Origin: a virus | Strand: one strand, 5' to 3' | Length of the DNA stretch: 64,000 bases | IMG/VR virus record: IMGVR_UViG_3300044701_002172 | Coordinates: 62,001 to 126,000 of that record | In this document: positions 39,820 to 63,889 of the stretch, in pieces | Position numbering within the stretch: position 1 is the stretch's first letter | Layout: each line of letters starts with the position of its first letter | Made by a program: the position numbers and the translations under genes | The notes under the pieces: model-generated | Told to the model about the DNA's origin: nothing | The model's database searches: none | The model's input: the letters and a program-made list of their open reading frames with translations, nothing else

Positions 39820-40682
39820 TATTCCTCTTCGAAATTATCCCCTTCAATATTTAGAATAGCATTTCTTCTTCTACGTTTTAAAAGAAACTTTAATCTTTCG
39901 TTTGCTGCCTTCTGATTATACTGTACAATCATATAAGCAGTGAAAGGATACACTCCCAATGTTGAAGTGACTGTAACATCAAAGTAAAATCTAAGTTTTT
40001 TGATGTCTGTACCTTTATATGATATAACTTGACCAATACTATTGAAATATCCTTCAAGAATCTCAGATTCTGTCTTATAAGCAGCAGCAACTGTTAAAGG
40101 ATAAAACGTGTTAATGTTTACACCAGATGGTAAAGGAATATTAATCTTTTTTAAATCAAATGGTAAATTTGCTGGAAAATTCTCTAAAGGAGCATAAAAG
40201 AACCCGTTACTTGTAAATTTAGTAATAGCATTCAAATATGACACCACAATCTCTCGGTCATACCAGTTTCTCTCCGTGAAATACCCAGAGATCGTTGCTG
40301 CTGGTCCAGGAGTACACACAACCAGAGGTTCTAAGAACAATCCAGGTGCCCAAAATGGTGACACAGGTATCTTGAGTTCTTTGTTTAATGATTTCGTTGT
40401 GTCACTTCCAGGTAACGGATCTTCTAATATACACTTATTTGGACCAAGTATCACAACACTCGTAATCACTTCAAGTGGTGCCGTGGGTATGGCACTCACA
40501 GTTAATGTGAATGGCTGGTAAGTGCTGATATAATTGGCATTAGGTCCGCCTTCACCATCAGGTAACTTATTTGCTACTGGACGAAACTCAAACGCTGCTG
40601 GAGGCAACGTAGGGTTCGCTGTCGGTGGTCCTGGAAGTGGTGCTGGTCCTACTGTGAGACCATCAACTAGTAACGTTGCCAT
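39819..40682 (-). CDS. Hypothetical virion-associated protein, 287 aa
   Basis: Immediately upstream of the PAAR gene (1-nt overlap), so probably a baseplate or spike component. The N-terminus is very proline-rich (GPAPLPGPPTANPTLPPAAF); the middle has FTERNWYDREIVVSYLNAIT and an amphipathic beta region; the end is basic (LKFLLKRRRRNAIL) then acidic. No transmembrane segment or family recognised. Confidence 0.75.
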   Translation of the reverse strand: MATLLVDGLTVGPAPLPGPPTANPTLPPAAFEFRPVANKLPDGEGGPNANYISTYQPFTLTVSAIPTAPLEVITSVVILGPNKCILEDPLPGSDTTKSLNKELKIPVSPFWAPGLFLEPLVVCTPGPAATISGYFTERNWYDREIVVSYLNAITKFTSNGFFYAPLENFPANLPFDLKKINIPLPSGVNINTFYPLTVAAAYKTESEILEGYFNSIGQVISYKGTDIKKLRFYFDVTVTSTLGVYPFTAYMIVQYNQKAANERLKFLLKRRRRNAILNIEGDNFEEE

Positions 40683-45348: not shown

Positions 45349-45382
45349 AGAATAACATGGGTGGGGGCTGGTGTCAACCCCC
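45349..45382 (-). promoter_or_regulatory. Promoter TTGACA-17-TATTCT with -35 in a GC hairpin loop
   Basis: -35 TTGACA (45377-45372), 17-nt spacer, -10 TATTCT (45354-45349). The -35 lies in the loop of a GGGGG/CCCCC stem (45382-45378 with 45367-45363). Little T follows, so termination may be weak here. Confidence 0.8.
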
Positions 45383-50910: not shown

Positions 50911-50944
50911 ATCATAGCACAAAAAAGGGGCTGGTCAAGCCCCC
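50911..50944 (-). promoter_or_regulatory. Fused terminator-promoter (TTGACC-16-TATGAT)
   Basis: Hairpin GGGGCT-TGACC-AGCCCC followed by TTTTTTG ends the 73-aa gene. The same bases hold the -35 TTGACC (50938-50933), with -10 TATGAT (50916-50911) 16 nt away. Confidence 0.85.
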
Positions 50945-55609: not shown

Positions 55610-55644
55610 AATATAGGGCAAAGCAAAGGGGGCGTCAAGCCCCC
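55610..55644 (-). promoter_or_regulatory. Fused terminator-promoter (TTGACG-17-TATATT)
   Basis: GGGGGC-TTGAC-GCCCCC hairpin followed by TTTGCTTTG; the loop and stem hold -35 TTGACG (55638-55633), and -10 TATATT (55615-55610) follows after 17 nt. A copy of the GTGACAGTTGACAGAGTGGCACA element lies before it. Confidence 0.85.
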
Positions 55645-55663
55645 TGTGCCACTCTGTCAACTG

Positions 55664-62542: not shown

Positions 62543-62700
62543 CGGATGTAAAGATGTTTTTTGTTTTCAATCATATGATCCAAAACTTGTGCTAGTTTTT
62601 GTTCATATGTGGCATTGTTATGTTTCATACACTCCACATAAGCATCATGAAGGCGAGCGTACAAGTCATCCCAATGAGTTTTGTCGATAGGTTTAATCAT
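62539..62700 (-). CDS. Small hypothetical protein, 53 aa
   Basis: Reads MIKPIDKTHWDDLYARLHDA, YVECMKHNNATYEQKLAQVL and ends IENKKHLYIR; helical, His- and Lys-rich. Overlaps both neighbours by 4 nt. Confidence 0.7.
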   Translation of the reverse strand: MIKPIDKTHWDDLYARLHDAYVECMKHNNATYEQKLAQVLDHMIENKKHLYIR

Positions 62701-62900
62701 TTCCAAATGCCAGAAACAACAGCAATACCAAGAATAATAGCAAGAAAACCAAGAGCGATCAGGAAACTAATCCAAATAGGAGAAATAACCCAAATCCAAG
62801 GCCAAGAAATAAATCCAGTGAGTTTTAGACCAACAAACAGAATAGTCAACCATCCAGCAAATCCCATGCCAGAGTTGACGGTAGTAGTGTTGCTAGACAT
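62697..62900 (-). CDS. Conserved membrane protein, 67 aa
   Basis: ATG 62900 chosen because the promoter at 62923-62956 lies upstream of it. MSSNTTTVNSGMGFAGWLTI; hydrophobic helices at about 13-33 and 43-64 (ISPIWISFLIALGFLAIILG). I recall a similar two-helix protein ('TVNSG.GF...L...F..LKLTG.I.W.W.WV..P.WI') in cyanomyoviruses. First gene of its unit. Confidence 0.82.
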   Translation of the reverse strand: MSSNTTTVNSGMGFAGWLTILFVGLKLTGFISWPWIWVISPIWISFLIALGFLAIILGIAVVSGIWK

Positions 62901-62922: not shown

Positions 62923-62956
62923 AGTATAGACCATAAAAAAGGGGGCGTCAACCCCC
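62923..62956 (-). promoter_or_regulatory. Fused terminator-promoter with the -35 box as hairpin loop (TTGACG-17-TATACT)
   Basis: Minus strand GGGGG-TTGACG-CCCCC-TTTTTT: a terminator after the phosphatase gene whose six-base loop is exactly the -35 hexamer (62951-62946). -10 TATACT (62928-62923) follows at 17 nt. Leader GTCTTCAGTTCAAACAAAAC leads to the membrane protein start. Confidence 0.9.
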
Positions 62957-62967
62957 TTGTGTCGGTT

Positions 62968-63438
62968 TCAGAACTGTCCATTTCCTTGACCAACATCAAA
63001 CACCCAGATGCCACGCTCAATCCACATGTTCACCACACGCTGGCGGTCATCAAAGACACCCAGAATCCTATGAGTTTTAATGATTTCATCAGCAATCTCA
63101 CCTTTAACAATAGCATCATCACGGTGATCTTTATACTTTCTCATATACAACCCATCCCATTTGAAACCAAATTTGGTGAGCCACTCTTCTGTTTGATCAC
63201 GATAATCATCTGACCGACCAGATACAAAGAACAGATCAGCATTCATAATTCCCTTACTGGCATGTAGAGATTTGTATACAAGTTCTACTGCTAGGTTGGG
63301 AACATCTTCACTCAGTCCTTTGTTCCAAGCATCCCAGTTACGGGGTTTGGTTGCCACATACTGACGACGATGGCGAACATCACAGATAGTTCCATCGAGA
63401 TCGAAAACGAAGCACTTCTTTTGTTCCACATTCAACAT
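62968..63438 (-). CDS. Polynucleotide 3'-phosphatase (HAD domain of split PNK)
   Basis: ATG 63438 chosen (MLNVEQKKCFVFDLDGTICD). 156 aa. HAD motif I is D13-L-D15-G-T, motif II is FFVSGRSDDYRD, motif III is VFDDRQRVVNMW. This corresponds to the C-terminal phosphatase domain of T4 PseT. In T4 it is fused to the kinase; here it is a separate frame that starts 59 nt inside the kinase gene, +1 relative to it. It removes 3'-phosphates from RNA or DNA ends. Confidence 0.85.
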   Translation of the reverse strand: MLNVEQKKCFVFDLDGTICDVRHRRQYVATKPRNWDAWNKGLSEDVPNLAVELVYKSLHASKGIMNADLFFVSGRSDDYRDQTEEWLTKFGFKWDGLYMRKYKDHRDDAIVKGEIADEIIKTHRILGVFDDRQRVVNMWIERGIWVFDVGQGNGQF

Positions 63439-63889
63439 AATCAAATCCTTCAGATACAGTTGGTTTTTCAAATTGATGATACATTCTTTTCAGAATGTCT
63501 TTGGGAATGAACTTACCTTCACGATGATTATTTCGTTCCAGTGCTTCTTCTAAAGGAATCTCAAAGTAAACTGCTCCTCTGTGACAATGTGACGGCAGTT
63601 TATTGAGTTTTTTCTTTCGTGCTTTGACACTGAGATTCGTCTGATCCCATATAATATTTTTGCCATTGTCAATGGCATATGGGATCAGTTTCTCCATCAT
63701 CCGTGTTGCTTCTGTGATATACTGATCGAACACTTCATTATATGTTTTGCCTTCTTTTTTGGCATAATAATCAATATAGTAATCTGTCGAGAGAACCACA
63801 GAATTTTTCCAATAGTCCAGAGCAAGAAGTTTATCCACATAGGTAGATTTCCCACTGGTGGGTATACCACAGAGCATTACACATTCCAT
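63380..63889 (-). CDS. Polynucleotide 5'-kinase (P-loop domain of split PNK)
   Basis: 169 aa. Walker A GIPTSGKS at residues 8-15; Asp36 in LSTDYYID corresponds to the catalytic Asp35 of T4 PseT; IIWDQTNLSVKARKKKL (~79-95) and FIPKDILKRMYHQFEKP are the lid and C-terminal helix region of phage kinases. It phosphorylates 5'-OH ends, normally for repair with an RNA ligase, which is not in the window. The last ~20 residues are non-homologous because the reading frame runs into the phosphatase gene. Confidence 0.88.
   Translation of the reverse strand: MECVMLCGIPTSGKSTYVDKLLALDYWKNSVVLSTDYYIDYYAKKEGKTYNEVFDQYITEATRMMEKLIPYAIDNGKNIIWDQTNLSVKARKKKLNKLPSHCHRGAVYFEIPLEEALERNNHREGKFIPKDILKRMYHQFEKPTVSEGFDYVECGTKEVLRFRSRWNYL

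Follow-up and report, generated by a model that had tools for sequence, protein, structure and literature searches.

A terminator hairpin with the next promoter's -35 box in its loop: a probable compact punctuation unit of cyanobacterial T4-like phages

Can one stretch of about 35 letters both end the transcript of one gene and begin that of the next? The question is raised by a junction (site A) in the window, the 64,000-nucleotide stretch of DNA analysed here, which spans positions 62001-126000 of an IMG/VR virus contig of 128,802 bp. The closest annotated relatives of this contig are Synechococcus and Prochlorococcus phages, e.g. S-SZBM1 and S-PM2. Judging by the sequences compared below, we think that in cyanobacterial T4-like phages one such stretch probably does both, stopping and restarting transcription.

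A preliminary description of the window had reported site A and three related sites, B, C and D. Re-reading the sequence gave correct coordinates for all four, with the elements on the minus strand in every case (Table 1). The proposed fusion of a terminator with a promoter is real by sequence at sites A, B and C, which share one design: the -35 box forms the hairpin loop, and the T-tract lies inside the promoter spacer. A GC-rich hairpin with an adjoining T-tract, the mark of an intrinsic terminator, is complete at sites A and C, has an interrupted tract at site B and is lacking at site D. The RNA hairpins have predicted folding energies of -12 to -20 kcal/mol (-14.5 kcal/mol, z -2.4, at site A; -20.1 kcal/mol, z -2.9, at site B). 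At each of the four sites, sigma-70-type boxes stand 16-17 nt apart with 10/12 consensus matches, as scored against the E. coli consensus. For positions 45349-45382 (site D), the hairpin and the promoter described earlier stand, whereas the "weak T-tract" does not: the hairpin runs into ACCCATG with no T-tract, so that site D reads as a weak terminator or none and is not convincing as one.

Table 1. Positions of the fused units and related features (window coordinates unless another sequence is named)
Feature	Position	Strand	Sequence or remark
Site A, whole unit	62958-62923	-	GGGGG-TTGACG-CCCCC-TTTTTT-ATGGTC-TATACT, spacer 17
Site A, terminator hairpin	62939..62958	-	AAGGGGG-TTGACG-CCCCCTT; T-tract 62940-62935
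Site A, -35 box	62946..62951	-	TTGACG = hairpin loop
Site A, -10 box	62923..62928	-	TATACT, spacer 17; start inferred near 62916
Gene upstream of site A	62968..63471	-	PNKP-type HAD phosphatase; end 16 nt before -35
Gene downstream of site A	62697..62900	-	67-aa hydrophobic ORF, phrog_1374 (unknown function)
Site B, unit	55645-55610	-	GGGGGC-TTGACG-CCCCC-TTTGCTTT, spacer 17, TATATT
Site B, terminator-like hairpin	55627..55645	-	AGGGGGC-TTGAC-GCCCCCT; T-tract TTTGCTTT imperfect, interrupted
Site B, promoter	55610..55638	-	TTGACG-17-TATATT; -35 in loop; GTGGCACA just ahead
Site C, unit	50944-50911	-	GGGGGCT-TGACC-AGCCCC-TTTTTT, spacer 16, TATGAT
Site C, terminator hairpin	50926..50944	-	GGGGGCT-TGACC-AGCCCC, then T6, 50926-50921
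Site C, promoter	50911..50938	-	TTGACC-16-TATGAT; -35 within loop
Site D, hairpin	45363..45382	-	GGGGG-TTGACACCAG-CCCCC around TTGACA; no T-tract
Site D, promoter	45349..45377	-	TTGACA-17-TATTCT; -35 in loop; GTGGCACA just ahead
GGCACA word	55650, 46472, 46375, 45389	-	
GGCACA word	44562	+	
GGCACA word	contig 36441 region	-	
KVP40 units (loci L539-L551)	NC_005083: 21147, 59699, 85859, 97800, 100194, 121377, 150227	+	

Two same-strand ORFs flank each unit, with a stop codon 13-25 nt ahead of it and the next ATG 51-75 nt further on; the ATG of the 67-aa ORF lies 51 nt past the start of the site A -35 box. Two further units lie on the contig outside the window, both on the minus strand. At contig 7011, with a porin-like gene upstream and a high-light-inducible (hli) gene downstream, GGAGGGG-TTGACA-CCCCTCC-TTTTTT is followed by TATAAT at 17 nt, with 12/12 consensus matches. 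At contig 36441 (site F), ahead of a gene judged by eye to be cobT-like, a degenerate version reads GGAGGG-GTAACA-CCCTCC-T7 with TACAAT at 17 nt; the hairpin, T-tract and -10 box are kept, and the loop is GTAACA. Rfam covariance models gave no match above the gathering score in window 38000-64000. Elsewhere in the window, positions 12026-36781 (minus strand) hold ORFs of exceptional length (1376, 2691 and 3475 aa).

Such fusions exceed chance in the contig itself. A scan of the whole contig finds that 4 of 51 good promoters have the -35 box at the centre of a hairpin with a T-tail, and 200 dinucleotide shuffles of the contig give a mean of 0.01 fusions and a maximum of 1, against the 4 observed; the preliminary description had set an excess over shuffled sequence as one of its tests. 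The same overlap appears from the terminator side: the contig has 36 strict terminator-like hairpins, of which 4 have a TTGAC loop, all four followed by a good -10 box at 16-17 nt.

To look beyond the contig, we scanned IMG/VR with the pattern GGGG-TTGAC-CCCCTTTT, using the reversed loop word (CAGTT) as a control. Among the matches listed, a -10 box follows TTGAC-loop terminators at 15-19 nt in 80 of 113 distinct sites, and at exactly 17 nt in 59 of those 80; like the other IMG/VR counts given here, these include orthologous loci and do not equal numbers of independent events. With the reversed loop, a -10 box falls at 15-19 nt in 1 of 81 distinct sites. A stem-neutral test instead took promoters whose spacer contains T6, whether or not a hairpin was present. 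Among the matches listed, 38 of 111 such promoters have a hairpin centred on the -35 box, and none has one centred at any of six other positions. Permuting the arms points the same way: 103 non-redundant sites among the matches listed form 34 hairpins, whereas exchanging 5' arms between sites leaves a mean of 2.9 (maximum 9), and with GGGG-arm sites set aside the figures are 24 and 0.9. The arm permutation and the spread over gene clusters allow for part of the kinship among IMG/VR loci.

Most fused units in IMG/VR differ in both stem and flanks. Paired stems include GCACCT/AGGTGC, GGGATC/GATCCC, GAGGTC/GACCTC, CCACCT/GGGTGG, GGAACCC/GGGTTCC and GGACCTG/CAGGTCC. Because the stems vary yet stay paired, selection would appear to act on RNA pairing, and the variation points to an RNA structure rather than to an operator sequence. 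Loci with the fusion are overwhelmingly cyanomyovirus-like: tblastn of the ORFs at 116 loci (79 + 37, few shared; among the matches listed) places 110 with cyanomyovirus references and 0 with coliphages, and leaves 6 unplaced. The genes downstream belong to no fewer than 36 unrelated clusters, and the median distances are 17 nt from the stop codon to the -35 box and 56 nt from the -35 box to the ATG. Among the neighbouring genes, identified from profiles or by eye, are hli, pstS-like, regA, glutaredoxin, segE-like endonuclease and hsp20-like genes. The preliminary description had proposed looking for the fusion in other cyanomyovirus genomes, and it does recur there. Ten genomes, the window's contig included, contain 17 units with the -35 box at or next to the loop, nine of them exactly centred, a count in which one S-SZBM1 unit is stem-embedded and some units have weak boxes; Syn9 and S-CRM01, two of the ten, contain no such unit. 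An apparent second promoter peak about 37 nt upstream of cyanophage hairpins is spurious, consisting of psbA/psbD C-terminal codons before terminators, as judged by eye from the translations.

Two loci suggest how the fusion may arise. At the hli locus, promoter boxes 17 nt apart are found in the window's contig, S-PM2, S-SM2, S-RSM4, S-H35 and Syn9, and a seventh genome, S-SZBM1, has a similar but weaker -35/-10 pair. Around this promoter the window's contig, S-PM2 and S-SM2 have three different hairpins, and among the seven genomes compared the hairpin is absent in S-RSM4, S-H35, Syn9 and S-SZBM1. At the cobT-like locus, a hairpin with a T-tract recurs and the loop is often not a -35 box. 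The fusion thus seems reachable from either side, by a hairpin growing round a promoter or by a -35 box growing in a terminator loop, the latter route being a suggestion from few genomes. We also considered whether the hairpin occurs solely where transcription of an upstream gene would run into the promoter. S-RSM4 hli, which has a divergent neighbour, has no hairpin, but the rule is not strict: the hairpin is missing as well from Syn9 and S-SZBM1, whose neighbouring gene is co-directional.

We consider it likely that the fused unit serves as compact transcriptional punctuation between co-directional phage genes, stopping the upstream polymerase and starting the next gene. RNA polymerase arriving from the upstream gene would transcribe the hairpin, pause on the U-tract and be released, with this U-tract falling in the spacer of the next promoter. 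As duplex DNA, the same stretch would be a sigma-70-type promoter, with the -35 box in the loop region, the T-tract filling the spacer and the -10 box standing 4-6 nt after the T-tract. The sigma-70-type holoenzyme would then start the next gene about 20 nt beyond the end of the previous transcript. As the hairpin would be missing from the new transcript, the two functions should not interfere at the RNA level. The fusion is possible because a 3' arm of 5-7 nt, 6-7 T and a further 4-6 nt add up to the required 17-nt spacer, and because TTGACN is needed in the loop alone and not in the pairing arms.

The geometry, the excess over chance, the recurrence at many unrelated junctions and the stems that change yet stay paired are established at the level of sequence. 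From them we infer that transcripts actually end and start at the fused units, and the gain would be a short intergenic region together with insulation of the new transcript. Cyanomyoviruses are without alt, modA and modB, and their early genes are thought to use unmodified host polymerase (PMC2984593), which fits the consensus promoters.

Composite promoter-terminator motifs (PeSL, promoter-early stem-loop) are established in T4-like phages, according to PMC4503421, and the cyanophage unit looks like a loop-embedded, more compact variant of these cassettes. In RB49, phi1 and other T4-like coliphages, the PeSL sets an intrinsic-terminator stem-loop and a strong early promoter of sigma-70 type between genes on the same strand, and the cyanophage units likewise join a stem-loop terminator and a sigma-70-type promoter in one intergenic unit. 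The register differs, however. In RB49, phi1 and T4 the hairpin stands in tandem with the -35 box, its centre about 30 nt upstream, and never around it; with an offset of 0 compared to about +30, the cyanophage units do not belong with the RB49/phi1 tandem PeSLs.

KVP40 offers another likeness, in that the terminator hairpin and the -35 box overlap physically, the -10 box follows at 18 nt, and at least 7 near-identical copies are present. Seven of these read AAAAGGGTTGAC-N4-GTCA(A/G)CCCTTTC..TATTAT. In KVP40, though, the TTGAC of the -35 box makes up the 5' stem arm (GGGTTGAC-N4-GTCAGCCC), leaving the stem no freedom to vary; cyanophages have the -35 box as the loop region, and their stems differ. 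We take the KVP40 composite elements to be, probably, the PeSLs of Comeau 2014. The overlapping early and late promoters of the cyanomyoviruses S-PM2 and Syn9 (PMC2984593) similarly superimpose host-type promoter signals on others within a short gap between genes, but there the overlap is of two promoters, and in the fused unit it is of a terminator and a promoter. One locus family has all three signals: at a segE-like endonuclease locus (L141, L188, L500, L502, L505, L506, L512 and others), a T4-type late box, GATAAATA, lies some 25 nt downstream of the fused unit, so that terminator, early promoter and late promoter are stacked within <100 bp.

Could the units serve some other purpose? They might be mobile regulatory cassettes, short homology blocks of the PeSL type for gene swaps between phages, with the punctuation carried along. 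Copies on the contig do share flanks past the core, with GTGGCACA upstream at sites B, D and F and the leader TCAGTTCAAAC(A/G)AA downstream at sites A and F, and the seven near-identical KVP40 copies would suit such a role, as would the shuffling in T4-like phages that PeSLs are reported to mediate (PMC4503421, citing Arbiol 2010 and Comeau 2014). We nevertheless regard this as unlikely: the differing stems and flanks of most IMG/VR units would make a poor substrate for homologous exchange, the hli promoter stays fixed in place while its hairpin changes, and PeSL shuffling was judged unlikely for the S-PM2 region studied in PMC4503421. Somewhat more doubtful still is a polymerase hand-over, in which core polymerase left on the -35/-10 region after termination rebinds sigma and restarts, coupling the expression of neighbouring genes. 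The predicted 3' end does fall between the -35 and -10 boxes of the following promoter, and E. coli polymerase for the most part remains DNA-bound after intrinsic termination, diffuses and can reinitiate nearby (PMC6978380 and PMC6978322), so that one polymerase could end one unit and start the next. Those observations come from the E. coli enzyme in vitro, with separate sites and, in the passages cited here, no fused element, and they extend to phage and cyanobacteria only by analogy. Post-terminational diffusion moreover spans hundreds of base pairs, so a tight fusion is not required, and sense reinitiation is rare, with <2% of retained polymerases in one of the two papers. It is equally speculative that the fusion physically couples genes, with the released polymerase preferentially restarting at the next promoter or being blocked by a polymerase already there, each unit then acting as a relay or a priority switch during early transcription of cyanophages.

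The two remaining readings fit the stems and the T-tract poorly. A symmetric GGGGG-N6-CCCCC core covers the -35 box in many units, as would be expected of a G-run/C-run palindrome that binds a dimeric regulator and has only incidental hairpin potential. But the stems are highly diverse while remaining paired, and the T-tract is on one strand only; we give this operator very little credence and reject it on the paired stem variation. The preliminary description had also suggested a conformational switch, in which supercoiling extrudes a cruciform and turns the -35 box single-stranded. An inverted repeat is present at the right place, yet with stems of 5-8 bp the single-stranded DNA hairpins are predicted at a weak -6.6 to -11 kcal/mol, probably not enough for a cruciform to extrude readily, and a DNA switch would have no use for the T-tract, which nonetheless recurs with the units. 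Since sigma region 4 recognises the -35 box in duplex form, extruding the cruciform would disable the promoter, and as the transcript from this promoter lacks the hairpin it holds no self-acting RNA switch. The suggestion therefore did not hold up, and we rate it as the least probable of all.

If the fused units are compact punctuation, a very short signal marks both the end and the start of transcripts, and operon maps become readable from the raw sequence of cyanomyoviruses, phages whose genes include some for photosynthesis (hli) and phosphate (pstS). Three layouts of one idea are now seen among T4-like phages: tandem, -35 box in the stem and -35 box in the loop. The loop layout alone frees the stem to vary, which may account for its spread to many unrelated junctions. 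The units also offer natural templates for polymerase recycling in vivo.

Several smaller observations accompany these units. A GGCACA word, mostly as GTGGCACA or CTGGCACA, lies 12-13 nt ahead of TTGAC at 5 places, with 0.46 expected in shuffles, and ahead of the degenerate unit as well; it could be either a shared cassette flank or an upstream promoter element. At contig 40039-40045, outside the window, the two -35 boxes of a divergent promoter pair form one inverted repeat, TTGTCAA-GGGGG-TTGACAA, and Syn9 123718-123733 holds another divergent pair with both -35 boxes in one inverted repeat, TTGACAAGTTTGTCAA. At six loci (L375, L380, L430, L444, L462, L465), another layout recurs, in which a CCTGGCAAAATCCAGG hairpin abuts the -35 box and is followed by TTGACTCCTCC and a T7 tract in the spacer. 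A host origin of the fusion was rejected, as a genome-wide scan with the GGGG-stem pattern returned 20 correctly spaced bacterial loci and 0 in Cyanobacteria. Bacterial genomes (Clostridia, Bacteroidales, Proteobacteria and others) contain 21 fused sites (loci L478-L497), with spacings of 16-18 nt though the pattern allowed 13-19, and in one Bacteroidales MAG (L483) two copies lie 2 kb apart.
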